In this document: one piece after another, positions 62 through 28,238 of the stretch | How the letters are laid out: each line of letters begins with the position of its first letter | Numbering within the stretch: position 1 is the first letter of the stretch | Virus record (IMG/VR): IMGVR_UViG_3300025113_000003 | Coordinates: 1-64,000 of that record | Strand: one strand, 5' to 3' | Source: a virus | DNA length: 64,000 nucleotides | Program-made: the position numbers and the translations under genes | The notes under the pieces: generated by a model | Databases searched by the model: none | What the model was told of the DNA's origin: nothing | What the model saw: only the letters and a program-made list of their open reading frames with translations

Positions 62-892
62 TCAAGACCCCTGCAGGTCCTCCGGCGTCCAACCGGTGAC
101 TGGCGGAACGTCACCGAACAGCACCCCCACTGGATCCACCTGCTTCGACAGCCAGACGTCCATCGACTGGACTACCGTCCGCTCGATTGGGCCGGTGGGC
201 CGGTGAGCTTCCGGGATCCGCGCCAGCGCCTCGGGCTCCAGCTCCTTCAGGACCTTCTGGCGCTTCACGAAGACACCGCGCTTGAAGAAGGGCGGGTAGT
301 CGTTGAAGTTGATCCCTTTCTCGGTGAAGAGCCGCTCCTGCATCTCAGGACCATGCATGCCCTGCAGAGACTTGTGCGAGAAGTGGGACTGCGCCGCCAT
401 CGAGATGGCGTTCTTGGTCGCGTCCTGCTGGCGCCACAGGAAGGCGTGGTAGGCCTCCTTGATGGTCGGCACCACGAAGGCCCGGCTGTCGAAGATCGGC
501 TCGCCACCGTGACCGCCAAGGCGGAGCCCGGCGAAGTGGTTGAACTTCAGGGTGCAGTAGGCGGCAGTCAGGCTTTCCAGCTTCTGGAAGCGCCCGTCGA
601 ACGGGTATTCGGCCGTGTCATGCGGCTGGACGTACCAGCAGAGGGTGATCTCGTCGGACTGCGTGTAACCGACCTTGGCCTGAAAGCGCTCGACCAGCGC
701 GAGCGTCGTGTGCTCCATACACCAGGAGAGGCGCTCGTCGTAGGGACGTTGCAGGCCCTTCGTGTAGGTGTGGAAGCTCTTGCCGTCCAGGCGGACGATG
801 AGCGGCTGGCCCTTGAAGGCGCGGCGGCCGGTGGATGGCTGCTCGTACAGCTTCATTCTGTCCCCAAGGGACGTCTTGTCGGTTTCTGACAT
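62..892 (-). CDS. Thg1-like 3'-5' nucleotidyltransferase (tRNA-His guanylyltransferase family)
   Basis: This 276-aa protein belongs by motif to the Thg1/TLP family, enzymes that add nucleotides to RNA in the 3'-5' direction, classically G-1 of tRNA-His or repair of truncated tRNA 5' ends. The first metal motif is visible as VRLDGKSFH (Asp36) and the second as YTQSDEITL (Asp80, Glu81), at the spacing seen in Thg1. The length is close to that of eukaryotic Thg1. I chose the ATG at 892 because GGAG lies 9 nt upstream; a GTG 33 nt further up would add 11 residues. A TAGAAT box lies about 55 nt upstream and a strong hairpin follows the gene. Whether it acts on tRNA-His or repairs damaged tRNA cannot be told from sequence. 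Phages with RNA ligases (one is encoded near 19 kb) often carry such repair enzymes. Confidence 0.88.
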   Translation of the reverse strand: MSETDKTSLGDRMKLYEQPSTGRRAFKGQPLIVRLDGKSFHTYTKGLQRPYDERLSWCMEHTTLALVERFQAKVGYTQSDEITLCWYVQPHDTAEYPFDGRFQKLESLTAAYCTLKFNHFAGLRLGGHGGEPIFDSRAFVVPTIKEAYHAFLWRQQDATKNAISMAAQSHFSHKSLQGMHGPEMQERLFTEKGINFNDYPPFFKRGVFVKRQKVLKELEPEALARIPEAHRPTGPIERTVVQSMDVWLSKQVDPVGVLFGDVPPVTGWTPEDLQGS

Positions 893-946
893 GGTCTCGT
901 GCTCCGAGAAGTTGAGGGTAGCCACCTGTTACAGCGACATAGGAGC

Positions 947-988: not shown

Positions 989-1396
989 TTACAGCTTGCG
1001 GTTGGCCGCGACCAGCACCGTGAAGGCGTACCTGAACCGATCATGGTTGAAGGGCTCCAGGTCAATCTCGTGACTGGTTAGAAAGTAGATCAGCGCCATC
1101 ATATTTGCGTAGATCTCGTTGAGCACCGCGATCTCTGTTCCGAGCTTGGTCAGCAGGCGGTCCTCTCCGTGCTTCCAGCGCTTGATGACCTCGGCCAACT
1201 GGGATGAGAGTGTGGCCAGGTTCTTGATTGTTTTGTTCAGCTCTCGGCTCTTGAAGGTAGCTGAGATGGTGTCCATCGGGTAGCGATCAAGGTAGAAGCT
1301 CGTGTGGTCAAAGAGGCAGTCCAACTGAGTCATCAGTGAGATGAAGGCCTCTTCGGCCCTATAGATCAGGCTTCTGCGAAGCAGCTCAGGCGTCAT
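989..1396 (-). CDS. Hypothetical protein
   Basis: This 135-aa protein is not recognised. It is mostly helical in character, with regularly spaced Leu and Ile, one run of aromatic residues (around residues 27-40) and a basic C-terminus. An open frame continues upstream to 1633, but that part is Ser/Arg-rich and lies antisense to the small gene at 1470, so I start at the ATG at 1396. A TAAATA box ends only 4 nt before this ATG, so transcription would begin almost at the start codon; no Shine-Dalgarno sequence is seen. The gene diverges from the MoxR operon. Confidence 0.65.
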   Translation of the reverse strand: MTPELLRRSLIYRAEEAFISLMTQLDCLFDHTSFYLDRYPMDTISATFKSRELNKTIKNLATLSSQLAEVIKRWKHGEDRLLTKLGTEIAVLNEIYANMMALIYFLTSHEIDLEPFNHDRFRYAFTVLVAANRKL

Positions 1397-1400
1397 GGCA

Positions 1401-1443
1401 TATTTAAGGATGGCGCCTGTCTTCTTACCCCGTGGCGTAAATA
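1401..1443. promoter_or_regulatory. Divergent pair of T4-type late promoter boxes
   Basis: TAAATA occurs on the minus strand at 1406-1401, in front of the gene at 1396. GTAAATA occurs on the plus strand at 1437-1443, about 27 nt before the ATG at 1470. Both resemble the T4 late box TATAAATA. The plus-strand box would drive the MoxR/VWA operon late in infection. Confidence 0.5.
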
Positions 1444-1469
1444 GCAGGTACACTCTGCAGAAGGCACTC

Positions 1470-1703
1470 ATGAAGCTGCACCATTTTGTCAACCAGGAAC
1501 CACCAGACACCGCGAAGCGACTGCGTGATCTCGGCAAGGCTCTAGCCGAGCTGGCTCCAGCTCCAGTTGCTGAGGCGCGCCGACCACGCAAGAAGGTGGA
1601 GGAGCCCACCGCTGATGACTCAGATGAGGGCATGGACGCCGCAATTATGGCGCTGACCTCAGGTCAGAAGCACATTCACAAGAAGATCAAGCACCACGAC
1701 TGA
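1470..1703 (+). CDS. Small hypothetical protein upstream of MoxR
   Basis: This 77-aa protein has an acidic/basic mosaic: an N-terminal helix, an Ala/Pro-rich hinge, a basic RRPRKK stretch, an acidic DDSDEG segment and a Lys/His-rich end. It has no known domain. AGAAGG sits 6 nt before the ATG, which fixes this start over an upstream in-frame ATG at 1395. It ends 8 nt before the MoxR-like ATPase gene and is probably co-transcribed with it, so it may be a partner or adaptor of the ATPase. Confidence 0.7.
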   Translation: MKLHHFVNQEPPDTAKRLRDLGKALAELAPAPVAEARRPRKKVEEPTADDSDEGMDAAIMALTSGQKHIHKKIKHHD

Positions 1704-1711
1704 GGACGGTC

Positions 1712-4279
1712 ATGCCGAAAGTAAACGTTGAGAACCTCAGTCTGGATGCCAAGGTCCAGACGCTCGAGCACATCTTTGACAACATGCACGTCAAGGGAGC
1801 CGGTCTAGGACAGGCGGGCTACATGCTAGGTGGCGACACCGGTGTTGGCAAGACATCCTTCATCCGCGACCTGTCGGCCCTGCTGGGCATGCAGCTCGTG
1901 ATGGTGGAGACCCCGCACATCATCGAAGAGCACATCATCGACATCCCGTTCATCGTCGTCAAGCCGAACGGGACCTCGAAGACGGTGCACACGCAGGTGG
2001 ACACGAAGAGCTCTGATGTGCAGTTCGACATCAAGTTTGCGAAGTCGAACCTGCACTCGACCCTTGCCTCTGCCAAGAAGGTCCCTGACGCCGAGCTGCT
2101 GAAGATCGTCTACTCGCGCGGTGACCTGGCCCTCATCTGGGAAAAGATGGGCGGCTCCAAGACCACCATCCCACCCGAGATCGATGAGCTGCGCCAGAAG
2201 TACGACGTCATCCTCTTCCTGGACGAGTACTTCCGTCAGACCTCCAGCGCCATCCGCAACATGCTGCGCTCGATCCTCAACGGCCGCATCGGCTCCAATG
2301 AGCTGCCCGACAACGTCTACGTCATCTTCGCGTCGAACCTGGTGGACCAGGGCGTCGGCGACATCCTCGAGAACGAGGACTTCCGCCTGCTCAACTTCGA
2401 CAAGCCGAGCGTGGACGACTGGTTCGCCTACCTGCTCTCGAAGTACAAGAGCCACAAGAAGGTCAAGCTGGACCCCGACCTGGTGGACGGCATGTACGAC
2501 CTCCTCAAGAAGAAGGACGCGCTGTCGCACGACGACGCAGACGCCGACGTGCGCATCTCGCCGCGCCGCTGGGAACAGCTGATGCTCTACATCAGCGCCA
2601 ACCTACCAGTGGCGGACCAGAAGGCGGCCGACCTGCTGATGAAGAACCTCGAGGTCAGCTTCAAGAACTACCAGACCGGCGAGAAGGCCGAGCTGGCGAA
2701 GGACGTGCTGGACCTGGTGAAGGGCCTCATCGACAAGCAGTCGAAGGGCAAGATCGCCGGCAACGAGGGCAACGTTGACGACTCCGACTGGCGTGAGACG
2801 CTGAAGCACCAGGTCGAGACCCGCATGAAGATCGGACCGGACCGCAAGTACATCCCCGTCATCGGCGGCCTGCCTGGCTCTGGCAAGACCAAGCACATCT
2901 CCCAGCTGGCCCTCGAGCTCGGCATGATCCCAGTCTTCGTTGACGTCCAGAACCTCTCGCCTGAGGAGGTCATCGGCGTGCCGCTGTCCAAGACCAACAA
3001 GGACGGCGACATCGAGGTGTCGTTCTCTCGGCCCCCGCTCTACGACAACATCCAGGAGCAGATCAAGCGCGGTGAAAAGAACCTGCCGGCCGCCCTCGAG
3101 AAGGCCTTTGGCAAGGACGAGGCAGCCAAGAAGCTGGCGCAGCACAACAAGTCCGACTCCAAGTACCTTGTCTTCTTCGACGAGCTGAACCGCACCAACA
3201 CGAAGGTCTTCAACGCCATCCGCAAGGTGCTGCTCGAGAAGGAGTTCAACGAGGAGTACAAGCTGCCACCCGAGTCCGTCGTGGTGGCCGCCGTCAACCC
3301 CACCGGCAAGGGCACGCAGGAGCTGACAAAGCACGTGCGAGACGTGTTTGACGTCATCCCCGTCGGCATCAGCTGGAAGAAGTTCAACGACCACCTCGAC
3401 AAGATCGACGTCGTCAAGCAGCTGAAGGTAGACCCTGAGATCGCTGAGGTGTCCCGCCAGGCGCTCAGCGCCTTCGTCGACAACTTCCGCAGCAAGGCGC
3501 CAGGGCGTGAACAGGGAGCCGACCCGCACTTCTACCTGCAGATCGGCCCGACGCCGCTCTACATGTCCGCTCGTGAGTACACCGACGCCTACATCAACTC
3601 CGCCAAGACGCTGCAGCGCGCCTTCAGGAAGGAGATTGACAAGCTGTCTGATCCAGACCACGACGCCGGAGAGAGCGAGCTGCGGATCCGCGAGGCTCTC
3701 GCCCGCGCCTTCGCTCACTCGGTCGGCTACACGGTTGGAGTGAAGCACTCCGTCGACGCGCCTGAGTTCTCGAAGGACCTGGAGGACTGGTTCAAGTACA
3801 CCGACAAGTTCAGCCTCGGCAGCATGTTCAAGAAGAAGGTCTCGTCAGTCAAGAAGCTGGAGGACATCCTCGCCAAGCCGTTCGAGAACCAGAACGAGGA
3901 CCTCTTCAACGACCCCGAGTTCGTCAACTACATCACGTCGGTCGACCCAGTCGTCTTCAAGGAGGAGCTCGTTGAGTTTCTGACCAACTACGCGGTCAAG
4001 GACGCCAAGACCGCCTTCGCGCAGACCCACAAGCTGAAGAAGCTGGACGCCAAGAAGAAGGCAACCGCCTTCGCTGGTAAGGAGATCTCGAAGATTGAGT
4101 ACATCACCCGCGAGATCCTGCACTCCATCAAGCTGCACGACATCTCCAACAAGATGACGGACATGGTCAAGGGCGGCCTGCGCGAGGTGCTGGAGAAGAT
4201 CGCCGATGAGGACACCGACCTCATCGAACCTATCATGGACCTGGCACATGAGATGCAGGACTTCATCAAGAAGCTATAA
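1712..4279 (+). CDS. Double MoxR-type AAA+ ATPase
   Basis: This 855-aa protein contains two AAA+ modules. The first has Walker A GDTGVGKTS (residues 41-49), Walker B ILFLDE (167-172) and a sensor-1 Asn in FASN (209). The second has Walker A GGLPGSGKTK (385-394), Walker B LVFFDELNR (486-494) and a sensor Asn near 529. The DELNR sequence is typical of MoxR ATPases, which remodel or activate protein complexes together with a VWA partner. The helical C-terminal 300 residues are unassigned. Most MoxR proteins have a single module, so the tandem arrangement is unusual. The VWA gene starts 6 nt downstream. The substrate is unknown. Confidence 0.85.
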   Translation: MPKVNVENLSLDAKVQTLEHIFDNMHVKGAGLGQAGYMLGGDTGVGKTSFIRDLSALLGMQLVMVETPHIIEEHIIDIPFIVVKPNGTSKTVHTQVDTKSSDVQFDIKFAKSNLHSTLASAKKVPDAELLKIVYSRGDLALIWEKMGGSKTTIPPEIDELRQKYDVILFLDEYFRQTSSAIRNMLRSILNGRIGSNELPDNVYVIFASNLVDQGVGDILENEDFRLLNFDKPSVDDWFAYLLSKYKSHKKVKLDPDLVDGMYDLLKKKDALSHDDADADVRISPRRWEQLMLYISANLPVADQKAADLLMKNLEVSFKNYQTGEKAELAKDVLDLVKGLIDKQSKGKIAGNEGNVDDSDWRETLKHQVETRMKIGPDRKYIPVIGGLPGSGKTKHISQLALELGMIPVFVDVQNLSPEEVIGVPLSKTNKDGDIEVSFSRPPLYDNIQEQIKRGEKNLPAALEKAFGKDEAAKKLAQHNKSDSKYLVFFDELNRTNTKVFNAIRKVLLEKEFNEEYKLPPESVVVAAVNPTGKGTQELTKHVRDVFDVIPVGISWKKFNDHLDKIDVVKQLKVDPEIAEVSRQALSAFVDNFRSKAPGREQGADPHFYLQIGPTPLYMSAREYTDAYINSAKTLQRAFRKEIDKLSDPDHDAGESELRIREALARAFAHSVGYTVGVKHSVDAPEFSKDLEDWFKYTDKFSLGSMFKKKVSSVKKLEDILAKPFENQNEDLFNDPEFVNYITSVDPVVFKEELVEFLTNYAVKDAKTAFAQTHKLKKLDAKKKATAFAGKEISKIEYITREILHSIKLHDISNKMTDMVKGGLREVLEKIADEDTDLIEPIMDLAHEMQDFIKKL

Positions 4280-4285
4280 TCAGCC

Positions 4286-6085
4286 ATGCCGCTTATCGAA
4301 AGCAACGTCAAGGCCAAGCTCGGGACGGTCGCTCCGCGATCAGACCTCAATGAGCCCCGCATCCAGAAGGCAATCGACTACCTGGTAAAGAACGGCGGGA
4401 AGACGAAGGCCGAGATCCTCACTCACCTCCAGGAGAAGGAGAAGGAGTTCAAGGACCTGGAGGCGAAGTCCCCGATCCTCTACTCCGCGATCGCCGCCAA
4501 CATCCACGAGCAGGAGCTCTACAAGCTCTTTCGTGAGCTGAAGATGCCCAACCCAAAGGGCGTCGCTGAGTTTGACCCAGTCACCTTCATGCAGCTGGTG
4601 CGTCGCGTCAAGGCTGAGAACCCGTCCATGTTCCCGCTGCGGAACTTCGCTGACAAGAAGCCGATCGCCTCGCCGCGGGTCATCCTTGTTCCGACGAAGG
4701 ACCCCAAGGACGCGCACTGGAACCGAGTCGAGACCGCCGCCGCCACCCCTCAGGGTGAGTTCATCTTCGACAAGAACACCGCCCAGCGCGACATGAACTT
4801 CGCGTACACCCAGGGCGTCAAGCCAAAGAGCAAGAAGTACAAGAGCAACGGCGGACCCTTCCCAGATGAGTGGGCCCCGGTCGAGTTCACCATCCTGCAT
4901 GAGTTCATGCACTACACCCACGGCGACTTCCACTACATGAAGACGATGGGCGGCAACCCGACCATCCACAACTGGGCCGGCGACTTCCGCTCCAACCACG
5001 ACCTCATCAAGGCAGGCCACCACCCCTACGCCGAGGGGCTCTACAGCGACTACGTCAACTACGACCAGTACGGGTCGTACAAGGAGATGTACGAGGCGGT
5101 ACTGAACGAGTTCAAGAAGCTCAACAAGGAACAGCAGCAGAAGGTCGAGAACCAGCTCGGTGAGCTCGGCGATGACCACGAGCCGCATGAAGGCGAGAAG
5201 CAGAAGCCGATGCCAGGACAGGGCGAGCCCACTGAAAAGGACCTCGAGGAGCACTCGAAGAACACCAGCAAGAAGCCAGGCAAGAAGGCCGACGACGCCG
5301 ACCCTGCGGCGGCAGAGGCAGCGGCAGCCGCGGCGGGCAAGGGCGCGAAGGGTGGCCGTGGCCACGGATCATCGTCTCCAACCCCAGTGGACTACAAGGG
5401 CGTCAGGCCGCGCTACAACTGGAAGACGCTGCTGGACAAGCTGGTCAAGTCAGCTGACACGACCGAGGTCACCTACCAGAAGGTGCACAAGCGCAACATC
5501 ACGGGCGTCCATCTCGCCGCCCAGACCGGTGCGGGCGTGGTTCGTCCTGGTGAGAAGGAGGTGCCAGCCAACCTCGTCAAGCTGGTCATCGTTGTCGACA
5601 GCTCCGGCTCAATGGCGTCAGCCATCGCCACCGTGCTGGCCAACGTGCAGAAGCTGCTCAACGAGACAGGCCGCGGCGTCGCTCGCAACCTCGTCTTCAT
5701 CGAGTTCTCGAACGACTACCACATGTACTCGGTGACCATGGTCGGCCAGTCTGGTACGGCCAAGGTCATCAAGACCCCACAGGAGGTCAAGCACGGTGGC
5801 GGCGGAAAGTCGGACTCGCTGGCGGCCATCCTCAACCGTCACCAGGGCGGCGCAACCAACTTCAGCGACGAGCTGGCAAGGGACCTAGCTACCTTCGCCG
5901 CCATGGGCTACAACATCCTCGTTCTGACGGACTCGGACATCGCGGGCAGCGGAAACAAGGAGGCCTTCCTGGACCTCTACTCCAAGCACCGCGACAAGGT
6001 GTACCTCATCCTCGACAGCGCCGACACCTTCCAGGCGATGGCGCAGACGATGAAGCAGGCGTCAGCTAACTTCAGCCACCTTTGA
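4286..6085 (+). CDS. VWA-domain protein with HExxH metallopeptidase-like domain (MoxR partner)
   Basis: This 599-aa protein has three regions. The N-terminal half carries HEFMH (205-209) followed by further His residues, resembling the putative metallopeptidase domain found in VWA-like proteins of the DUF2201 type. Residues about 275-370 are a charged, Ala/Gly/Lys-rich linker. The C-terminal domain is a von Willebrand A fold with the MIDAS motif DSSGS (438-442), a later Thr in GGATNFSDE and an Asp in LTDSD. Such proteins pair with MoxR ATPases in chaperone-like systems. The gene lies 6 nt after the ATPase gene. The HExxH could be catalytic or a structural relic; a third zinc ligand is not obvious. 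Confidence 0.83.
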   Translation: MPLIESNVKAKLGTVAPRSDLNEPRIQKAIDYLVKNGGKTKAEILTHLQEKEKEFKDLEAKSPILYSAIAANIHEQELYKLFRELKMPNPKGVAEFDPVTFMQLVRRVKAENPSMFPLRNFADKKPIASPRVILVPTKDPKDAHWNRVETAAATPQGEFIFDKNTAQRDMNFAYTQGVKPKSKKYKSNGGPFPDEWAPVEFTILHEFMHYTHGDFHYMKTMGGNPTIHNWAGDFRSNHDLIKAGHHPYAEGLYSDYVNYDQYGSYKEMYEAVLNEFKKLNKEQQQKVENQLGELGDDHEPHEGEKQKPMPGQGEPTEKDLEEHSKNTSKKPGKKADDADPAAAEAAAAAAGKGAKGGRGHGSSSPTPVDYKGVRPRYNWKTLLDKLVKSADTTEVTYQKVHKRNITGVHLAAQTGAGVVRPGEKEVPANLVKLVIVVDSSGSMASAIATVLANVQKLLNETGRGVARNLVFIEFSNDYHMYSVTMVGQSGTAKVIKTPQEVKHGGGGKSDSLAAILNRHQGGATNFSDELARDLATFAAMGYNILVLTDSDIAGSGNKEAFLDLYSKHRDKVYLILDSADTFQAMAQTMKQASANFSHL

Positions 6086-6890: not shown

Positions 6891-7865
6891 TCAGGCGTTG
6901 ATCATCGCGTACAGGGCCAGCCGCTTCCAGTGGTCGGGCTTGGTGGAGCGGGCCTTGGTCACGTTGATCAGCGTGCGGAGGTTGATCTCCTTGATCTCGG
7001 GGCGGGCGCTGTTGGCGGCGATGAACTCGAGAGCTTCGAGCTTGTGGGCCAGCTCGTAGCCGACCAGGAAGTCGCCGGCCTTGACGATAGCGGTCATGCG
7101 CTCGATGATCTCCGAGCGGGTCATCGAGACATCTGCCGGCATCGAGCGCGAGATGATCGCCTGCGGGATCTTGTACATCGGCATGTTGCTGATGAAGATC
7201 ACGCCGCCGGTGAAGAGGAAGGACTTGGGCAGCTCGTCGTCGCCGCCGAAGCCGCCTTCCGCGTTCCAGGTGATGATGCGCTTGTCGTAGCTGTCCAGCG
7301 CCGCCTTCAGGAGGTTGCTCGCGACCGGGTCCTTCAGGACGCTGTCGCAGTCATCGAACACCACGAGCCGGTCCTTGTTCTCGTAGAGGGTGCGGAAGAG
7401 ACCCTTGGCGGTGGAGAAGCCCTTGACAACGACGTAGCCTTTCGAGGAGAGACCTTCGTCGAAGCGAGCGCCGATCTCGGCGTCGTCGAGGTTGAGCAGG
7501 CCGGCGCGCTTGAGAGCTGCGAAGACGGTGTGCGACTTGCCGAGACCGCCTTGGCCGGTGATGATCGCCGACGGGATGGTGCGCGAGGCGACCATGTCGA
7601 CGAAGTCCTCCAGAATCAGGAAGCGCTCGTTGATGCTGAAGACCAGCTCCGGGTCCACCGTCTTGACCGCGGTCAGCGGCTTGGCAGCAGAACCGAGTTC
7701 CTCAACCGCCGTCACGCCGAGGGCCTTGGCCTTGGCGCTGATCTGGTTGACGATCTTGTCGACGACGTAGTCCTTCGAGCTCGACTTCAAGAAGACGTGG
7801 CCGCCGAAGGAGGCTTCCCACTTGCTGGTCTTGTCGTTGTAGGAGAGGAGAGCTGTTTTGGACAT
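6891..7865 (-). CDS. AAA+ ATPase of phage type
   Basis: This 324-aa protein is a single AAA+ module. Walker A is GQGGLGKSHT (104-113), Walker B is VVFDDCD (168-174), the sensor-1 Asn lies in FISN (227), and an Arg-finger candidate is ISRSM (Arg240). The first 90 residues form a separate N-terminal domain. GGAAG precedes the ATG, which replaces an upstream in-frame start lying inside the promoter region. The family is probably a DNA- or protein-remodelling ATPase; the substrate is unknown. A TACAAT box and TGTACA/TGTAAC elements lie upstream, so early expression is likely. Confidence 0.8.
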   Translation of the reverse strand: MSKTALLSYNDKTSKWEASFGGHVFLKSSSKDYVVDKIVNQISAKAKALGVTAVEELGSAAKPLTAVKTVDPELVFSINERFLILEDFVDMVASRTIPSAIITGQGGLGKSHTVFAALKRAGLLNLDDAEIGARFDEGLSSKGYVVVKGFSTAKGLFRTLYENKDRLVVFDDCDSVLKDPVASNLLKAALDSYDKRIITWNAEGGFGGDDELPKSFLFTGGVIFISNMPMYKIPQAIISRSMPADVSMTRSEIIERMTAIVKAGDFLVGYELAHKLEALEFIAANSARPEIKEINLRTLINVTKARSTKPDHWKRLALYAMINA

Positions 7866-7898
7866 TTGGCTTCCGTCAGGGTGTTTGTCGATAGGTGT

Positions 7899-7959
7899 AT
7901 TGTACATCATGTGCACATCTTGTACACACCTAAAGTGTAACGGTTGGGCAGTCGTTACA
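7899..7959 (-). promoter_or_regulatory. Early promoter region with TGTACA and TGTAAC repeats
   Basis: A TACAAT -10 box (7904-7899, minus) is followed upstream by repeated TGTACA/TGTGCACA elements (7900-7926) and an inverted pair TGTAAC (7936-7941) / GTTACA (7954-7959). The clustering suggests operator sites for a regulator acting on the AAA+ gene. Confidence 0.5.
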
Positions 7960-7962
7960 TGA

Positions 7963-8175
7963 TCACCAGCGACCACGCCAGCGCCGCTCGGGGGCCCAGC
8001 GCTCACGGAAGGCCTGGATGCGGTACGCCTGCGGTGTCAAGGAGTATCCCTCACAGTCCAGCGTCTGGATCTTCACCCAGCCACCTTCCACACCGAGCAC
8101 CCGACAGTGAATGTCACCGCTCAGGTAGCGAAAGAGAGCACCCGGTTCCAGCGGTCCCTCGTAGGTCTGATCCAT
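7963..8175 (-). CDS. Small hypothetical protein
   Basis: This 70-aa protein looks like a compact beta-rich domain (PGALFRYLSGD, CRVLGVEGGWVKIQTLD) with a basic Trp/Arg-rich tail. No family is recognised. The leader between the TATAAT box at 8206 and the ATG is about 30 nt and contains GGAAAG. Confidence 0.6.
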   Translation of the reverse strand: MDQTYEGPLEPGALFRYLSGDIHCRVLGVEGGWVKIQTLDCEGYSLTPQAYRIQAFRERWAPERRWRGRW

Positions 8176-14900: not shown

Positions 14901-15770
14901 TGGGTAGCGTGGGTCAGCGGTTGGATAGGAGGTCAGCAGCGGCGTTGGGGCCTGACGACCGTCCTGTACAAACGGAATGTCGCTGATGTCCTGCCAGGTA
15001 TCAGCAGGCAGGTCCAGTCGGTGAACACCCCAGCGAGCGGCAGAAAGGAAGTAGTCCCAGTCGTGTGAAAAAGGCTGCACCTCCACCTGAGCAAGCGCAT
15101 CAGCGCCTACCACAACATTCGGGTCAGATCCAAGGTCAACGATCTTGGTGCTCAGGTCGGCATCAAGCGTCGCGAAGTCAGTGATGTCGGGAAACAGCCG
15201 GCCAAAGGTGTCATTGCCATAGCTCGGGTCCGTTGTGGGACCAAGCAGCAAATCAGCAAGCAGCTTGGCCTCATCGTACTCTGCGCGAAGCGCGGAGTTG
15301 TCGACCTCTGGCCACACCTGGTTCCACCCACCATTGACACCAGGGGCCGCTGGAAAGCGACCGATGCCGTCAAAGACGTACATGATTCCGCTGCTGGTAC
15401 CTGTTCGCTGGAACCAAACTGACCCGAGCGCAGCGATCGCGGGTGGCGGCTCACCAGGTTCAGTGGTAGGAATACCAGACACGGGCTCCCAGATGATGTT
15501 CCCAATGATGTCAGAGATGCAGACCTTCAGCGTCTGCGCGAGGGAGTCGTACCAGATCTGGCCCAGAGTAGGGTACTCAGGTGAGGTCTCGCCTGAGAAG
15601 TTTTCAAGTAGCCACAGCAGGTTCTCCTGCTGAATCTCACCGTAGTTGGCAGCGCCCTTGCCAGTAAATTTCAGTGAGGCCTGCCCAGCAACGGTGGACC
15701 CGACTGGGACCGTGATGTCGACCTTTGGGTTGCTGGTACCAGGACGGTACCACTTGAGAACGTATGCCAC
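11910..15770 (-). CDS. Large tail-fibre protein with PKD, Gly-rich and Ig-like domains
   Basis: This 1286-aa protein begins with a head seen on very large T4-supergroup fibre proteins (SLKFTGKGAANYGEIQQENL, residues 32-51). The middle carries two PKD-like beta domains, each with a W-D-x-D-G-D-G core. A polyglycine region (roughly residues 755-965) ends in GGVRIIWGTGR, a signature I associate with Gly-rich receptor-binding tips. An Ig-like domain follows (TYQWQRSSDG...DNGFYYRAVV), then about 220 beta-rich residues. This suggests a virion fibre or adhesin contacting the host surface. The start is GTG with AAAGGG 8-9 nt upstream. A late promoter box lies at 15844-15850, behind the PhoH terminator. 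Confidence 0.85.
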   Translation of the reverse strand: MAYVLKWYRPGTSNPKVDITVPVGSTVAGQASLKFTGKGAANYGEIQQENLLWLLENFSGETSPEYPTLGQIWYDSLAQTLKVCISDIIGNIIWEPVSGIPTTEPGEPPPAIAALGSVWFQRTGTSSGIMYVFDGIGRFPAAPGVNGGWNQVWPEVDNSALRAEYDEAKLLADLLLGPTTDPSYGNDTFGRLFPDITDFATLDADLSTKIVDLGSDPNVVVGADALAQVEVQPFSHDWDYFLSAARWGVHRLDLPADTWQDISDIPFVQDGRQAPTPLLTSYPTADPRYPTADRRAVRRYGSVTTTRLFAETMNVLSTAGSMRYTLRGTMGGSGANPSFSSDVVGQQHCIRRAGPPSGPVWPGGSTPVDVTATLRWTDNLERNRFWFSGSIVEIVLDYTIPGAPTASDTAWLAFVNTYKRVRINGDGIFAFGNTTPITLAVAPSSNGFKYLLDTSGTVTLATYSTVTGTVVVTASNTSGLMNLNLALSETAAGVLTGTTTVTYNLIRDRTVFNDGVADNVDLFPAPFAWVNSTDGVGTSPLFIDVPVTPAPVVDFTVAPRVGVTDPATEFSFQWSGTPAAPTLIEWDFDGDGVYTTVGPAPTNKYYSPGLKTIRVRATTDGGQDVLTRVGYLSITGDEVAPPPIPVPSFTVSPNPATVGAIITLTDTSSNSPTLINWDTDGDGNYDATGATTTVTYGTTGTKVITMEASNIHGAATTTRTVTVAAAVIPDGEALFTTAGSFSWTAPAGVTSVSAVVIGGGGAWTGTSLVKAGGGGGGLAWRNNIPVIPGNVYPIVVGGTAGTSSFNTTLIALGGSNAVDNTRGVGGAPSGTYDGGGIGGNGGTGFWTEQISYGCGGGTAGYAGYGGAGAAGPGSIGYHPEANSGGAAGGGGSSLANSQGGGGVGLYGIGPNGTASGQGGSGGTNGVYGTINAAVGGAQGGGAGGGTTTGATGGVRIIWGTGRSYPSNAAAPLSITTHPATQSVSEGASVTFTVTVMGTAPITYQWQRSSDGTTFTNIGGATGATYTFATTLADNGFYYRAVVTNPTGFLNSNSARLTVVQAVFLTPITVLGGEPYSTISYNVVAEIDVSSSIPVVETYAYPTPSSLTVTVNSVPVPSMVWNTVATSRFNLSPIPANLTYLSNNGQAMVITTANAAGTVNRTLTINVLARTKPSQFVWASSGSATATIARNSVVTLRSVITGNLSNPRATSIAITAGTVPPGFSLVSVTDWNAGAANTNAVGSGRVRIGGGTVTVAGTYNFTLSVVWSANSCVAPLTSTYNMTLTVT

Positions 15771-15843
15771 TTAGATATCCCTTTCACCGGCTTGAAAGAA
15801 GAGCTACCACGGCCGGTTTCTTGATGCAGTAGTCCTGTAGCCC

Positions 15844-15850
15844 TATTTAC
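15844..15850 (-). promoter_or_regulatory. T4-type late promoter box for the large fibre gene
   Basis: Minus-strand GTAAATA, matching six of the eight T4 late-box positions, about 74 nt upstream of the fibre start and just beyond the PhoH terminator. Confidence 0.6.
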
Positions 15851-15854
15851 GGAC

Positions 15855-15886
15855 AAAATGGAAAAGGGACCTCAGCGAGGTCCCTT
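15855..15886 (-). terminator. Rho-independent terminator of phoH
   Basis: A perfect 10-bp stem AAGGGACCTC / GAGGTCCCTT with a 3-nt loop is followed on the minus strand by TTCCATTTTG. It lies 22 nt past the PhoH stop codon and separates phoH from the late fibre gene. Confidence 0.85.
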
Positions 15887-15908
15887 GAGGTCTGGCGTTG
15901 CCCTCCTC

Positions 15909-16679
15909 TTAGGCTGACAGCAGGGATGAGGCCGCGTGGTACCCGTTCGAGCGGCGGGCTACACGAGCATCAGGAACTTCTAGGTGCAGCAGCAGCTCTC
16001 TAACGATAGCTGAGCGCACGCAGTCGGTTGCTGAGAAGCGAATGACGTTGATGTTGGAGCTGACGCCGCTGAGGCGCCGCACGATCCACTCCAGCCCGTT
16101 CTCAGGAAGGCCACGGAGGTCGGACTGGCTCTCGTCGCCGTTGATAGCAAACTGGCTGCCCTCGCCGATGCGCGTGATGAACAGCTTCATCTGCTCGATG
16201 GTGGTGTTCTGCGCCTCGTCAAGAACCACATACGCGTTGTTGAACGTTCGACCTCGCATGTAGGCGAGAGGAGCAAACTCGATCTTGTCTGACTCGAGCA
16301 GCTTCTTGGCCATCGTCGGACCGACCAGGTCATTGATGGCGTCCAACAGGGGAAGCAGGTACGGGTGAATCTTCTCTTCGAAGGTACCAGGTAGGAAGCC
16401 GAGGTTCTCACCAGCCTCACAGACCGGGCGGGTGATGATGACTCTTGAGACCTCACCGTTAAGCAGCTTGGAGATGGCGACCGCCATCGCGAGGAAGGAC
16501 TTACCTGAGCCGGCAGGGCCGGTGCCGATGGTAAGGATGGTGTCCTCAAGCGACTCCTTGTACAGGCGCTGCGCCTCGCTCTTTGGACGGGGGTCAAATT
16601 TCAAGCGAATGATGCGGGCTCCTTCATCGTTGATTGGTTGTGGGTACTTCTGTTTTGCGAGTGCGAGTCGACGTCCCAT
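15909..16679 (-). CDS. phoH: PhoH-like P-loop ATPase
   Basis: This 256-aa protein has the PhoH domain: Walker A GPAGSGKS (54-61), then FLPGTFEEK, RGRTF (142-146), Walker B VVLDEAQN (151-158) and GDESQSDL (181-188). PhoH proteins are widespread in large marine and T4-like phages; the domain is an ATPase/RNA helicase-like module of uncertain role, historically linked to phosphate starvation. The ATG at 16679 has a consensus AGGAGG 6 nt upstream, which rules out an upstream in-frame start. A TAGAAT box at 16832-16827 gives a leader of about 140 nt. Confidence 0.92.
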   Translation of the reverse strand: MGRRLALAKQKYPQPINDEGARIIRLKFDPRPKSEAQRLYKESLEDTILTIGTGPAGSGKSFLAMAVAISKLLNGEVSRVIITRPVCEAGENLGFLPGTFEEKIHPYLLPLLDAINDLVGPTMAKKLLESDKIEFAPLAYMRGRTFNNAYVVLDEAQNTTIEQMKLFITRIGEGSQFAINGDESQSDLRGLPENGLEWIVRRLSGVSSNINVIRFSATDCVRSAIVRELLLHLEVPDARVARRSNGYHAASSLLSA

Positions 16680-16826
16680 GGGTTTCCTCCTACCGGAAAG
16701 GACGTGGCGGGGTCCGTGGGCAGAGCGCTCACGGGGCGAGGACAACCAGCGGGGCAGAGGAAGGGGTAACGAGCGGGCACAGGCCCGTCATCGAGCGTTG
16801 TGTAGGATAGGCCCTTGGTTGGACTC

Positions 16827-16832
16827 ATTCTA
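16827..16832 (-). promoter_or_regulatory. Early-type -10 box upstream of phoH
   Basis: Minus-strand CCTAGAATGAG. The leader of roughly 140 nt down to phoH is GC-rich and includes an open but Pro-rich frame starting right at the box; I see no convincing gene in it. Confidence 0.4.
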
Positions 16833-16860
16833 GGGCGTGGTGCCTAGGATGCGTGCTTGG

Positions 16861-17268
16861 TCAGTCCTGATGCTTCAGGACGTAGTGGATCCAGTCGACG
16901 GCGCAGAGGTTCACTCCCCATGGGAGCTTCTCTGAGAACAGCACGCACTCCCTAAGGAACTGCGCGAGCTGGACCGCCTCTTCAGGGGTCAGCGCCTTGA
17001 TGGACTCAACGATCTCGGTGGAGGTGGCTCCAAGCTCACCTGGGTTGCGAAGACCGGGTGAGGCAGGTGGAATGCCGCTACGGTGCTGCGCACCGGCGGC
17101 GAGGCGGAAGTGCTCCGACAGCCAGCCTAGAATGAAGTTCTGGTAGGGATTGGTGACCTTACCGTCTCGAATGATCTCATCGAGGGTGAGGACGACGTTC
17201 TGCTCGCCAGCTTCCTCATTGACGATTGCGCGGTGAAGGTTCATAGATAGAATCTCAGGTTTGAGCAT
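16861..17268 (-). CDS. Hypothetical late protein
   Basis: This 135-aa protein (127 aa if the ATG at 17244 is used) is mainly helical, with a PYQNFILGWLSEHFRLAAG segment and a C-terminal LPWGVNLCAVDWIHYVL region. No family is recognised. An ATAAATA late box ends exactly 5 nt before the ATG at 17268, where T4-type late transcription would start at the A of the ATG. Either the mRNA is leaderless or translation begins at the internal ATG at 17244. Confidence 0.7.
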   Translation of the reverse strand: MLKPEILSMNLHRAIVNEEAGEQNVVLTLDEIIRDGKVTNPYQNFILGWLSEHFRLAAGAQHRSGIPPASPGLRNPGELGATSTEIVESIKALTPEEAVQLAQFLRECVLFSEKLPWGVNLCAVDWIHYVLKHQD

Positions 17269-17273
17269 GATCC

Positions 17274-17280
17274 TATTTAT
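17274..17280 (-). promoter_or_regulatory. T4-type late promoter box
   Basis: Minus-strand GCATAAATAGG, seven of eight matches to TATAAATA, 5 nt upstream of the ATG at 17268. Confidence 0.6.
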
Positions 17281-17319
17281 GCCTGGATGCAGAATAGATA
17301 AAGCAGGAGGTCAAGCTAC

Positions 17320-17547
17320 ATGAATGACACCAGACCAGACGGCGAGTACTTTATCGACACCGCGGTGAAGCCGATTCCGCATAGAAACACCTGGGGCTCG
17401 CTCTCAGTCAACCAGCTCATCGAGACCAAGAACGACCTACAGCAGCAGCAGTTTAACAACCGCGCTCACCCGGTCATTTCGAAGGCGCTGCAGAGCGCGC
17501 TGGAGGAGCTGCAGCGGCTGATCGACCACCGCGTTTTACAGGGATAG
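17320..17547 (+). CDS. Small hypothetical protein on the opposite strand
   Basis: This 75-aa protein is not recognised. The consensus CAGGAGGT lies 8 nt before the ATG, which is strong support for a real gene despite its isolation on the plus strand. The middle and end are helical (SVNQLIETKNDLQQQQFNNR, ALEELQRLIDHRV). Its last 74 bp overlap the 3' end of the convergent clpP-like gene, so the two C-termini are encoded antisense to each other. Confidence 0.65.
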   Translation: MNDTRPDGEYFIDTAVKPIPHRNTWGSLSVNQLIETKNDLQQQQFNNRAHPVISKALQSALEELQRLIDHRVLQG

Positions 17548-18133
17548 GCGCCTCAGCGTACTCTACAACGCGGTCGACCAGCCCGTACTTCTTGAGCTCA
17601 GCTGGAGTGAGGTAGCGGTCCGACGGGCCAAACAGCACGTCGCGTACCTGCTTCTCAGACATACTTGAGTGGCGAATGAAGTGGCGAATGAAGCGCGCCT
17701 CAAGCAGGCGAAAGGACGTCTGCGTCGCGATCAGCTCGTGCTGCTTGCCCTCGAAGTAGCCGGCGAACTGGTGCGCCATGATTTCGGTGTTCTTGGTGAT
17801 CACGCGCCGGCCCTTGGTGCCTCCTGAAAGAAGCAGCACCCCCATCGACATGATGTTGCCGATGCCAACGGTTGAGATCGGGAGGCGCGACGCGTCCATC
17901 ACGTCGATGATGGCGAAGGCCTCGCCGCACTCACCACCGACCGTGTTAAGGATGATGGTCAGCGCCGAGAGGTCCTTCTTCAGGATGTTGGACTTGAGAA
18001 TGAACTCACACGCCGCCTTGGACTTCTCCTCATCCACCTCACCAAAGAACTGATGGACGCCTAGAGATTCTAGGGTAAGGTCATCGTAGGAGGAACCTGC
18101 TTCTGATGTCTGGTCTTCGGGCTTCTTCTGCAT
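17474..18133 (-). CDS. clpP: ClpP-like serine protease
   Basis: This 219-aa protein belongs to the ClpP family. The catalytic triad is visible: Ser96 in GNIMSMGVLLL, His121 in IMAHQF, and Asp172 in GPSDRYLTPAEL followed by KKYGLVDRVV. The oxyanion-region Gly-Gly is at NTVGGECGEA. The Ala/Pro/Lys-rich last 25 residues are extra and overlap a plus-strand gene. In phages, ClpP-fold proteases serve as head-maturation proteases or supplement host proteolysis. A late box 33 nt upstream favours a virion or assembly role. The T4 gp21-type protease, which the packaged proteins would need, is not in this window. Confidence 0.88.
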   Translation of the reverse strand: MQKKPEDQTSEAGSSYDDLTLESLGVHQFFGEVDEEKSKAACEFILKSNILKKDLSALTIILNTVGGECGEAFAIIDVMDASRLPISTVGIGNIMSMGVLLLSGGTKGRRVITKNTEIMAHQFAGYFEGKQHELIATQTSFRLLEARFIRHFIRHSSMSEKQVRDVLFGPSDRYLTPAELKKYGLVDRVVEYAEAPIPVKRGGRSAAAAPPARSAAPSK

Positions 18134-18166
18134 CTACCTGCTCCGGCGGGGCAACCGCTTACCAGG

Positions 18167-18173
18167 TATTTAC
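18167..18173 (-). promoter_or_regulatory. T4-type late promoter box for clpP
   Basis: Minus-strand GTAAATACC, lying inside a larger dyad (GGCGGGGCA ... TGCCCCGCC, 18145-18182), 33 nt upstream of the clpP start. Confidence 0.55.
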
Positions 18174-18184
18174 TGCCCCGCCAG

Positions 18185-18209
18185 ACCACCTGGCTTTTCA
18201 CCAGGTGGT
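18185..18209 (-). terminator. Hairpin between an upstream small gene and clpP
   Basis: A 9-bp stem ACCACCTGG / CCAGGTGGT with a 7-nt loop lies directly after the stop of the small gene at 18217 on the minus strand. There is no U-tract; it probably ends or stabilises the RNA-ligase transcript. Confidence 0.55.
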
Positions 18210-18216
18210 ATGCAGG

Positions 18217-18393
18217 TCACCTCGGCGGGCGTAGGAGGTGTAGCGGGATCTGTTCCTCGTTCCAGTCAGCTGGCTTGAGTTCAGGCAACCCGCGCCACGG
18301 GTTAGGTGGAGCAGGGAAATCTCGGGAAATAGGCTGCAGCCAGTCAGTCGGCTGCAGCTCGGGAGGTCCATTCCAGGTACGGTAGCGATCCAT
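18217..18393 (-). CDS. Small protein with duplicated W-x-G-x-PEL-x-P-x-DW motif
   Basis: This 58-aa protein contains two copies of a Trp/Pro motif: WNGPPELQPTDW (residues 8-19) and WRGLPELKPADW (33-44). No family is recognised. GGAGGT stands 9 nt before the ATG, and the ATG overlaps the RNA-ligase stop codon (TAATG), so it is coupled to the ligase. The repeat looks like a short linear binding motif displayed twice. Confidence 0.68.
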   Translation of the reverse strand: MDRYRTWNGPPELQPTDWLQPISRDFPAPPNPWRGLPELKPADWNEEQIPLHLLRPPR

Positions 18394-19532
18394 TAGGCGT
18401 TCACCTCCACGACTTCCAAGCCCCAGTCCTGCTCGAGGTGGTGCTTGACATACCATTCCATCCAGTTGACTTCCTGGCCACGGAACAACCGCATGATCTG
18501 GCCAAACAGCGGGTGCTCCTTGTTCAGCAGCGCCATCTCCTTGGCCGTCTTGTTTTGCTTCAGGCCTGCTTCAGCGTGCAGCTCGGCGGCACCACGAGCA
18601 GCGTCGATCTTCACCTTGATCGCGTGCTGCACGTCCTCGATCGGCTTGATGGCGCGGCCCGTCAACGCGAACGCGCCCTTCAGGTCGTCGGCCTTGTCGT
18701 CGCAGACCGTCCGCGCGATGTCACGCCAGCGCGTGAAGGTCACCGCGTGGTGCAGCTCGATATACCAGGCCGTCTTCAGCTTGACCATCTCGCCGCTCTC
18801 GAACTGGATCACCCAGCCCTCGATGCCGTGGGTGGCCTCAGCGGCCGCCTTCAGCTTCTCCCACGAGACCAGGTTGGCTGGCAGGCCGTCACCGAAGAAC
18901 TGCTCCATCAGGTTCTCGACAAGCGGGAAGGGCGGCGTGAAGCTCTGCAGCTCACGCTCCGTGAGGTAGCGACCCGTGATGTTCTCGCGCACGTGCAGGA
19001 GCGTCAGCTCGTCGGTGTCGTACTTCAGCACGATCGGGAACCGCGGCGAGGTCACCTCGAAGGTCGGCGTGAAGCCGTCCAGCAGGAGCTTCTTGACCCA
19101 GCTGTAGCGAACCGAATCCGAGCAGAGCTCGTCGGCCAGCGCGGCCTCCTTCGTGCTGAAGGACTTCTTCGTCTTGAACTTGAAGCTGCCGTACTGGTCG
19201 ATCGCCACAGGCGTGACCATTGAACCGTCGCGCTTCTCCATGATGCGCGTCACGCGCTGCCACTGGAGAGCGTGCGGCTGCGTGTCCTCGCGCTCGCCGA
19301 CGTTGAAGAACTTGTGAAGACACCGAGCGGCAATGGTGCCGTTCGCGTGGAACGTGATGCCGCGGCACTCGCGCTCGACGTGCTCGTGAGGGCCAGCGAA
19401 CGTGTCCTCGTCCTGGATCATGTAGCAGACGACCGTCAGGCCGGTGCTCTCATCCGGCTTGACGCGAATGGTGGAGTTGCCCTGCACGAACGGCAGGACA
19501 TCGTCGAGGGTCTTGATGATGTGGAAGTTCAT
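18393..19532 (-). CDS. rnlA: T4 Rnl1-type RNA ligase
   Basis: This 379-aa protein aligns by eye along its length with T4 RNA ligase 1, which joins 5'-phosphate and 3'-OH RNA ends and repairs anticodon-nuclease-cleaved tRNA. Nucleotidyltransferase motifs are intact: motif I MEKRDGS with Lys100 as the AMP-accepting residue, CRGI upstream (Arg57), motif IIIa FEVTSP (Glu159), motif IV EGWV (Glu238) and motif V KLKTAWY (Lys251, Lys253). The helical Rnl1-specific C-terminal domain is present. No Pnkp-like end-healing enzyme is seen in this window. The promoter TATAAT ends 5 nt before the ATG and no Shine-Dalgarno exists, so the mRNA should be leaderless. Confidence 0.93.
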   Translation of the reverse strand: MNFHIIKTLDDVLPFVQGNSTIRVKPDESTGLTVVCYMIQDEDTFAGPHEHVERECRGITFHANGTIAARCLHKFFNVGEREDTQPHALQWQRVTRIMEKRDGSMVTPVAIDQYGSFKFKTKKSFSTKEAALADELCSDSVRYSWVKKLLLDGFTPTFEVTSPRFPIVLKYDTDELTLLHVRENITGRYLTERELQSFTPPFPLVENLMEQFFGDGLPANLVSWEKLKAAAEATHGIEGWVIQFESGEMVKLKTAWYIELHHAVTFTRWRDIARTVCDDKADDLKGAFALTGRAIKPIEDVQHAIKVKIDAARGAAELHAEAGLKQNKTAKEMALLNKEHPLFGQIMRLFRGQEVNWMEWYVKHHLEQDWGLEVVEVNA

Positions 19533-26612: not shown

Positions 26613-28238
26613 TCACTTGAAGTAGGAAACACGGATCTTGTCGCCTACGGCTGGAACGAACTCGAACGTGATCACGGCACCAGCAATCGTGTAGTCATTG
26701 CCAGTCCCTACGTCCTGTAGCAGGCCGTTCAAGTACACGTGTTCGGTCCCAACCTTCGGGGTGTTTGCCAGCGTGAATATTGCGTTGAGGCCATCAATCA
26801 AACCGACTGGCGTTTCACGCGTGATCACATCCGCCACGCTGACGACCGTTGCTGGGTTGATCGTGACAACCCCGCCCTCGGTCATCGTGACGTCGCCTGA
26901 GAGCGCCACTGAGACGTTGCCTGCGCCGGAGCCGACGATGATCTGCGCCGGAGCAAGGGCTACGATCTTAGGTAGCGTGACGGCGCCGACGCCTATCGTG
27001 GCTGCCCCGGTCTCAGCCAGCGTGATGTCGCCCGAGACCACAACTGCTGCATTGCCGGCGGCGGTACCGATGATGATCTCGGTAGAGGCCAGCGGAGCAA
27101 GTGCGTCAAAGTCAATCTCCGCCAGAGTGATCGTACCGTCTGACGCGATCGTGGCGTCACCACTGGCGGTCACATAGGTCGGAACGCCAAGAGCGTCGTT
27201 GACGATGATCTGAGCGGCAGTCCCTGGAACGAGCTTGGTGAGCGCGATCGGTGCAAGGGTGATGGCCCCGCTTGGTGCAATCGTGGCGTCGCCTGAGGCG
27301 GTCACGTAGGTCGGAACACCGGTGGTGGCCGCCGTGACGATGATCTGCCCGGCTGGCAGACCTGCCGCCAGCTTCACAAGAGGCACCGAGCCGTCAGGAA
27401 TGTCAGCGGCTGAGATAGCTCCTGGGGTGATTGACGCTACGCCCAGCTCATCGATGGTGATGTCACCCGAGATGGTCTGCGGAGTAGCAACGTTTGTGGC
27501 GCTACCGATCAGGAACTGAGCCTGTGGTAGAGCGGCAAGGCTGAGACCACCTGCGCCAATGGCCAGCGTGGCATTTGCAAGGGTCAGCGCGATGTTGTCG
27601 GGATTGACAACGATGCCGCCGTTGGCTGAAACAACGTCAAGCGTGCTGCCGACCTTAACAAGACCCCCACCAGCTTCGATTTCGCCAGCTGACGAGAACT
27701 GTGAGAAGCTTAGCGGCGTGACGTCAAGATCGATTGGGTTAGGAGTTGACAGGACCCAGCCCGAATCTCCGTTTGCCAGGCCTTCCTCGACGAAGACGAA
27801 CATGCCTGAGTTGACCTCGCCATCTGCATCTGCATCCGCAGAGCGTACCCAGGCGCCGGCGCCAACAACGTAGATGCCGTTCGTTTCCCCCAGGGTCTGT
27901 CCGGCGACCAGCACACGGTCGCCCGCTACCAGCGAGACACCGTCAACGGTCTGGATACCAGTTAGCGGGATATCAGTGAGCGAGATGACCCGAACGGCGT
28001 CCTTGACATCGAGACCGGTTGAAACGGCATCAACGTAGCCCTTTGTGGCTAGGTCATTGGGGGTAATTGGCGCAACGCCGCCCTGCGGGGCGGTAAACGG
28101 AACTGACCCGTCGCTCTTTACGAGTAGGTCGCCATCCTCGATCTTGGAGAGCTCGATACCTGCGGCGGTAGCGATCTGCGCGTTGCCGATGGTGAGATCG
28201 ATGATTTGCGTGTTACCGCGGATTTTGGTGAGAGCCAT
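26613..28238 (-). CDS. Tail-fibre or fibre-connector protein
   Basis: This 541-aa protein begins MALTKIRGNTQIIDLTIGNA, an N-terminus I recognise from T4-like and other phage fibre proteins. The pattern PNDLATKGYVDAVSTG, then a NGIYVVG...GWVLSTPNPI module, matches part of the 1854-aa fibre. The rest is a series of short beta repeats (GDATIAxxGxITLAxI, about 25 residues each), giving a thin shaft, and it ends in a compact VGTEHVYLNGLLQDVGTGND-type beta tip. AGGAGG lies 6 nt before the ATG and a late box about 25 nt upstream. Confidence 0.85.
   Translation of the reverse strand: MALTKIRGNTQIIDLTIGNAQIATAAGIELSKIEDGDLLVKSDGSVPFTAPQGGVAPITPNDLATKGYVDAVSTGLDVKDAVRVISLTDIPLTGIQTVDGVSLVAGDRVLVAGQTLGETNGIYVVGAGAWVRSADADADGEVNSGMFVFVEEGLANGDSGWVLSTPNPIDLDVTPLSFSQFSSAGEIEAGGGLVKVGSTLDVVSANGGIVVNPDNIALTLANATLAIGAGGLSLAALPQAQFLIGSATNVATPQTISGDITIDELGVASITPGAISAADIPDGSVPLVKLAAGLPAGQIIVTAATTGVPTYVTASGDATIAPSGAITLAPIALTKLVPGTAAQIIVNDALGVPTYVTASGDATIASDGTITLAEIDFDALAPLASTEIIIGTAAGNAAVVVSGDITLAETGAATIGVGAVTLPKIVALAPAQIIVGSGAGNVSVALSGDVTMTEGGVVTINPATVVSVADVITRETPVGLIDGLNAIFTLANTPKVGTEHVYLNGLLQDVGTGNDYTIAGAVITFEFVPAVGDKIRVSYFK

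Follow-up and report, generated by a model that had tools for sequence, protein, structure and literature searches.

The window analysed here (bases 1 to 64,000 of a virus record of 92,868 bases in total; G+C 60%) carries three consecutive open reading frames on the plus strand. The first encodes a small charged protein of 77 aa (MKLHHF...KIKHHD; positions 1470 to 1703). The second (1712 to 4279) encodes a tandem MoxR/AAA_5-type AAA+ ATPase of 855 aa, recognised by Pfam, by the PHROG family phrog_1297, by its motifs and in an AlphaFold model, and the third (4286 to 6085) encodes a protein of 599 aa in which a DUF2201-type metallopeptidase is fused to a VWA domain, as indicated by the Pfam family DUF2201_N and by a model. 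The intergenic gaps measure only 8 nt and 6 nt, and the positions and strand that a preliminary description of this DNA had given for the three frames proved exact. The small ORF probably has its ribosome-binding site in the AAGG that is read directly from the sequence at 1461 to 1464 (plus strand), and a T4-type late promoter element, GTAAATAG, is located at 1437 to 1444 on the same strand, 32 nt 5′ of the ATG at 1470. The whole set is kept at about 25–74% identity in 21 other contigs and therefore does not represent a chance pattern of ORFs; this conservation, together with the intact motifs described below, rules out such a reading.

The operon adjoins a gene for a Thg1-type tRNA-His guanylyltransferase on the minus strand (window positions 62 to 925; Pfam Thg1, 90 bits), which occupies an equivalent position in two related loci, L004 and L052; reports of Thg1 in jumbo phages are sporadic (PMC7824862). 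Between the Thg1 gene and the operon lies an ORF without assigned function (989 to 1633, minus strand), also conserved in L004 and L052; the 5′ part of this ORF, as listed, overlaps the small ORF in antisense orientation. Past the end of the operon, a P-loop ATPase gene is found on the minus strand (6891 to 8006; phrog_1250 match, 180 bits). Neither Rfam families nor tRNA genes were detected when the window was scanned for them.

Architecture of the ATPase and of its partner

The ATPase contains two complete AAA+ modules, recognised by motifs and in the AlphaFold model (pLDDT 86.0, pTM 0.74), as anticipated when it was first described as a double MoxR-type protein; its scores against the Pfam families AAA_5, AAA and AAA_3 exceed the cut-offs. 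Module 1 (residues about 12–305; 1745 to 2626, plus strand), delimited by motifs, tree and model, carries Walker A GGDTGVGKT (40–48), Walker B LFLDEY (167–172), sensor 1 N209 and sensor 2 R285/R286. Module 2 (residues about 357–640; 2780 to 3631, plus strand), for which the PHROG match provides additional evidence, carries Walker A GGLPGSGKT (385–393), Walker B VFFDEL (486–491), sensor 1 N529 and sensor 2 R621. The remaining residues, 641–855 (3632 to 4276, plus strand), form a C-terminal region that is mostly helical according to the secondary structure of the model. The AAA+ motifs of both modules are invariant or almost so across 20 relatives; the candidate DRF-type arginine finger residues, R225 in the first module and R543 in the second, are variable among relatives. 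A helix-2 β-hairpin insert is predicted in both modules from the secondary structure of the model, consisting of H72–75/E78–84/E104–111/H113–120 in module 1 and of H417–421/E424–428/E434–438/H442–466 in module 2.

The best PDB fold matches of the ATPase are dynein AAA2–4 and Rea1/midasin, with both modules aligned (TMq 0.32–0.42), and midasin is likewise its best PDB sequence match. The comparison with ClpA yields a TMq of only 0.18–0.19, despite about 700 aligned columns. Since the values for dynein and Rea1 are higher than that for ClpA, an arrangement of the two modules side by side in one ring is favoured over stacked rings, the ClpA-like stacked double ring being less favoured by this comparison, which concerns a single-chain model. 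In a phylogenetic tree of the modules, the first modules form one group (100/99), the single-module ATPases another (100/99) and the second modules a third (80/88). With midpoint rooting, module 2 is nearer than module 1 to the ATPases of the N4 gp24 type; given the long branches between the groups, the tandem may have arisen by duplication or by fusion. In one relative (L043, 7837 to 11547), an intein-like insert with a LAGLIDADG_3 domain splits the Walker A motif of module 1.

The partner protein matches Pfam DUF2201_N with 36.5 bits (cut-off 23.2). It contains an HExxH sequence (HEFMH, residues 205–209; 4898 to 4912, plus strand), predicted to bind zinc, and further towards the C-terminus a conserved aspartate, D233. 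The VWA domain (residues 430–599; 5573 to 6082, plus strand), identified by motifs, model and fold match, possesses a complete MIDAS (D438-x-S-x-S, T524 and D549) that is kept in 18–19 relatives, and its best fold match is NorD of the NorQD system. The AlphaFold model of the protein reaches a pLDDT of 78.1, with a disordered linker. Taken together, the DUF2201_N match, the HExxH motif, the full MIDAS and the modelled VWA fold agree with the original view of this gene product as a VWA protein that also has HExxH. The preliminary description had named the lack of a real VWA or of a second AAA+ fold as grounds for abandoning its proposal, and both folds are present in the structure models. At the N-terminus, the residues L-I-E (3–5; 4292 to 4300, plus strand) fit a propeptide-cleavage-like signature, [LI]xE, whose enrichment in the family is considered below.

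In L004, L032/L041 and L040 the metallopeptidase and the VWA domain are encoded by separate adjacent genes, which suggests that the two parts can function as separate chains. A frameshift is unlikely to be the cause of the split, as L004 and L032 each show a separate start for the second gene, and the in-frame TAG of L040 precedes a fresh start whose product has an N-terminus resembling that of L032. As for the annotation of these proteins, the DUF2201 metallopeptidase-VWA family phrog_1314 is labelled "HNH endonuclease", a name that clashes with its domain content and that is found in many phage records.

Relatives, phage background and late promoters

Scans of viral contigs returned 25 loci which, with the window, correspond to 21 non-redundant contigs of up to 342 and 360 kb; one further contig, L052, was found in a bacterial metagenome-assembled genome (MAG), so that the tandem clade comprises 22 non-redundant contigs. 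The ATPase is tandem in every complete member of the clade (840–956 aa, or 1236 aa with the intein-like insert), and the motifs for catalysis and metal binding (both AAA+ modules, HExxH and MIDAS) are kept across 18–22 relatives. The three-gene order, which the preliminary description had proposed to look for in phage genomes, is conserved: 20 of the 22 loci have a short ORF in front of the ATPase gene and, equally in 20 of 22, the partner gene lies immediately 3′ of the ATPase or one gene apart. In two fragments, L007 and L008, the partner gene was absent even when the whole record was searched. The small proteins (71 aa in L001) are fast-evolving and have a common C-terminus, approximately NPxLYxKIxxWD. 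Their last residue is D or E in 13 of 19 cases, compared with 64 of all 567 genes of these loci. An adaptor role is possible for the small protein, whose acidic C-terminus is a plausible candidate for a MIDAS ligand.

L052 (JAKQFZ010000996.1) is a contig of 12.7 kb in a Candidatus Omnitrophota MAG. Its ATPase is 74% identical, and its genes follow the same order as in the window, namely Thg1, the conserved ORF, the late promoter, the small ORF, the ATPase and the partner. Given this matching phage gene order, L052 is probably a binned phage contig, and a cellular origin of the operon, which this single match in the genome collection could have implied, was discarded for the same reason. The occurrence of L052 in the Omnitrophota MAG is a weak hint as to the host, or the result of mis-binning.

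The tandem branch is so far confined to uncultured phages. No tandem relative was detected among 50,697 phage records with five tandem queries, all matches being single-module or short; a match in MT838194 ("Bacteriophage sp.") was rejected, as this record looks bacterial and carries a restriction HsdR-like gene. On the other hand, the BFVD library contains a clear tandem relative of 840 aa (A0A8D4GM15, 39% identity), so that public viral proteins already include one or more unnamed members of the tandem type. Homologues with a single module are widespread. For instance, the metallopeptidase of Alteromonas phage A5 matches 743 records, mainly from Schitoviridae and also from Vequintavirinae and jumbo phages, and single-module ATPases of 351–447 aa are found in N4, RaK2, GAP32, Atu_ph07, Vibrio 2.275.O, MIJ3, PHA46 and A5. 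All inspected relatives from isolated phages are single-module, consistent with the earlier remark that two modules in one chain are unusual for a phage.

The relatives and the late promoters identify the phage of the window as a large T4-related phage. A gp21-type prohead protease is present in 7 of 15 records and a gp23 major capsid protein scores over the cut-off in 7 of 15, the larger ones included; neither gp21 nor gp23 was found in the 93-kb record containing the window. The assignment of this DNA to a phage, made at first from the sequence alone, is upheld. As to the late promoters, TAAATA occurs 15 times in the window, and 11 of the 15 occurrences lie no more than 120 nt in front of predicted starts, where 1.1 would be expected (p ~4e-10). 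The 11 sites of this NTAAATA late element precede both structural genes and genes without assigned function, and among the genes behind it are those for a head maturation protease (17474 to 18133), a head decoration/fibre protein (26613 to 28238) and a tail fibre (56160 to 58391). Upstream of the small ORF, TAAATA is found at a distance of 26–51 nt in 16 of the 20 evaluable loci, window included, and in 17 of 21 when L052 is added; from the per-locus densities, about 0.9 matches would be expected by chance in the 130-nt upstream stretches. Late expression of the operon is best supported by this recurrence of the element across diverged phages, which confirms the late promoter originally noted in front of the operon.

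The surroundings of the operon vary. Genes for tail sheath, sheath stabiliser, tail tube or head closure are located near it in L006, L009, L025, L027 and L029, while it adjoins replication genes in L040 and L044 and topoisomerase II genes in L032/L034.

Comparison with known systems and possible function

Adjacent genes for a MoxR-type ATPase and a DUF2201 metallopeptidase-VWA protein are found, as in the window, in N4 and other Schitoviridae (gp24/gp25; phrog_1297/phrog_1314). They are core genes of N4-like phages, gp25 has a vWFA domain, and the pair belongs to a middle and not to a late transcript (PMC4193335). The HExxH motif, the downstream aspartate and the MIDAS of gp25 are those of the window partner; however, gp24 has one AAA+ module (352 aa) that belongs to a tree group apart from both window modules, and the small protein with the C-terminal motif was not recognised in N4, unlike in the tandem clade. 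The N4 pair is located among nucleotide-metabolism genes. A MoxR/metallopeptidase-vWA pair has also been reported in group 2.2 jumbo phages (ASV44729.1/ASV44728.2; Iyer et al. 2021, PMC7824862), with a role in virion assembly proposed by analogy to Acidianus two-tailed virus (PMC7824862). These two are genes of Atu_ph07, whose ATPase of 417 aa has one module. Indeed, Atu_ph07, RaK2, GAP32 and 121Q, which are large and partly T4-like phages, share the two-gene logic of the window, and in 121Q the single-module pair comes after a block of structural genes. The jumbo-phage ATPases, however, have one module and 417–447 aa, as compared to two modules and 840–956 aa in the tandem clade, which in addition has the conserved small ORF and the T4-type late promoter. 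Owing to the N4 gp24/gp25 homologues and the description of 2021, the MoxR/metallopeptidase-VWA kind must be regarded as already known; new here are the tandem ATPase clade, its late promoter and a third gene conserved alongside the pair, and no papers on the tandem form were found in the literature searched. The pair occurs in hundreds of phage genomes, and our search found no functional report on it.

Outside these phages, NorQ/NorD combines a MoxR ring with a VWA partner, as we propose for the window operon, but has one AAA+ module and no metallopeptidase, and its target is nitric oxide reductase (PMC13036017). NorQD is the best-resolved model for the mechanism: a finger of the NorD VWA domain is inserted in the MoxR pore, the ring is bound by the NorD C-terminus, and the partner is twisted as ATP is hydrolysed (PMC13036017). 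Midasin (Rea1/Mdn1) and dynein resemble the window ATPase in concatenating AAA_5-type modules in each chain, and midasin also makes use of a MIDAS/VWA; both, however, are eukaryotic proteins with six modules per chain, and the VWA of midasin resides on the same chain. Finally, p618/p892 of Acidianus two-tailed virus are a MoxR-VWA pair cited in PMC7824862 and PMC7159879 as chaperones in tail development; this virus is archaeal, and the pair is without a peptidase domain in the account that PMC7824862 gives of it.

In our opinion, there is an even chance that the operon encodes a late ATP-driven remodelling machine, possibly proteolytic, for virion morphogenesis. Such a protein-remodelling machine of the MoxR/VWA class would be expressed late by a T4-related large phage. 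Its two AAA+ modules would be neighbours within a single ring, an arrangement resembling that of dynein and midasin; three tandem chains, or else some other pseudo-hexamer, would probably make up this ring. The VWA domain could dock on this ring and present the substrate via its MIDAS, as NorD does on NorQ, whereupon the fused putative zinc metallopeptidase might clip the remodelled substrate; the small protein may act through its acidic C-terminus as adaptor or regulator. Most likely, the substrates would be virion assembly proteins of the tail/neck or of the prohead.

Virion morphogenesis is favoured by the combination of the T4-type head genes, the tail/neck neighbours, the context in 121Q and the detection of a related protein in phAPEC6. 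Virions of the latter contain a 49.5-kDa ATPase, detected with 6 peptides (PMC7247149, table), whose mass and distance from thymidylate synthase agree with those of a MoxR ATPase homologous to N4 gp24; since thymidylate synthase is likewise found in the virion preparation (PMC7247149), the ATPase may be carry-over. Arguments against a role in morphogenesis are the middle expression of the N4 pair, the replication and topoisomerase neighbours in L040, L044 and L032/L034, and the partner-less fragments L007 and L008. Of the two functions initially offered for the operon, remodelling of virion complexes gains support from the late promoter, the T4-type head genes and the tail/neck neighbourhoods, whereas counteracting host systems does not, as PADLOC returned nothing convincing. 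The two-module chain would offer, in a prokaryotic virus, a parallel to the concatenated rings of dynein and midasin. Furthermore, the tandem clade makes the phage function of the machine directly testable, through the tie of the late promoter to virion production and through the C-terminus of the small protein as candidate MIDAS ligand.

The T4-type prohead protease cleaves after [LI]xE. It was considered whether the small protein and the metallopeptidase-VWA protein, joined in some phages by the ATPase, enter the prohead by means of T4-type capsid-targeting or propeptide N-termini ending in [LI]xE, are trimmed by the gp21-type protease and leave with the DNA, to remodel a complex of the host as infection begins. 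We hold this to be unlikely. In its favour, [LI]xE, the predicted cleavage signature, is enriched near the start of two of the proteins: within 25 aa of the N-terminus it is present in 15 of 18 metallopeptidase-VWA proteins, where shuffling predicts 4.3, and in 13 of 19 small proteins, where shuffling predicts 5.8. Both counts exceed those of all 2000 shuffles, although shared descent weakens them. N-termini of the type MK..[LI]xE, which resemble the T4 capsid-targeting sequence (CTS; PMC9958956), are likewise frequent in these contigs: 39 of the 567 genes have one, as compared with 6.4 after shuffling. Clear cases are the L040 partner (MRFIEILQEM), the ATPases of L032 and L034 (MRSIIGQILTEA / MRSLLARALQEA) and the small proteins of L023 and L044. 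In addition, L[MTA]E followed by T in the major capsid N-termini of three relatives is consistent with the [LI]xE consensus, a gp21-type protease is present in all larger relatives, and the phAPEC6 ATPase mentioned above was found in virions (PMC7247149). On the other hand, the ATPases as a family are not enriched in the motif (7 of 21; shuffling gives 4.0 and internal windows 6.6), and the motif of the partner may simply be the start of a conserved domain (ExAF block) inherited by descent. Moreover, a large ring inside the head would be unusual, and the T4 capsid-targeting sequence is known from few internal proteins only (PMC9958956). That all three proteins constitute a prohead-targeted and protease-matured machine is a decidedly unlikely extension of this idea; if true, an injected AAA+ remodelling protease would be delivered into the host with the genome.

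A machine for host takeover or counter-defence, recognising and disabling a host complex or an immune ATPase, appears quite improbable. Bacterial conflict systems include MoxR-vWA pairs (PMC7159879), against which an operon of this kind could be acquired as an antagonist, and the N4 pair is made in the middle phase (PMC4193335); yet the late promoter in 17 of 21 loci and the conservation of the operon across diverse large phages speak against this role. Pfam and PADLOC scans showed neither the third component nor the effector domains of the MoxR-vWA ternary conflict system (VMAP, iSTAND), bpMoxR remaining below the cut-off, and the only PADLOC match was a weak one of Walker type, so that a defence system was dismissed as well. 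Lastly, a metal-insertion or enzyme-activating chaperone of the CobS/CobT, NorQD or CbbQO kind, acting on a phage or host metalloenzyme, is highly improbable: NorD is the best VWA fold match and there is a weak PHROG match to the CobS-type phrog_249, but late expression counts against it, no metalloenzyme or chelatase large subunit (CobN-type) was recognised among the scanned flanking genes, and the partner has a metallopeptidase domain in place of the CobT architecture. To our knowledge, a fused DUF2201 metallopeptidase domain is absent from both NorD and CobT.

Two further gene sets were observed in the related loci. Leucine-rich-repeat-like proteins (cluster c2, 37 members) flank the operon in L006, L008, L009, L032, L035, L038, L042, L043 and others; several have CTS-like N-termini, they share a C-terminus of approximately ELIxxGLxEFAKL, and they are possibly internal or injected head proteins. 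In L044, four adjacent genes on the minus strand (15579 to 19496; cluster c26) all start with MR[IL]FKNLVE and represent a CTS-like paralogue set.
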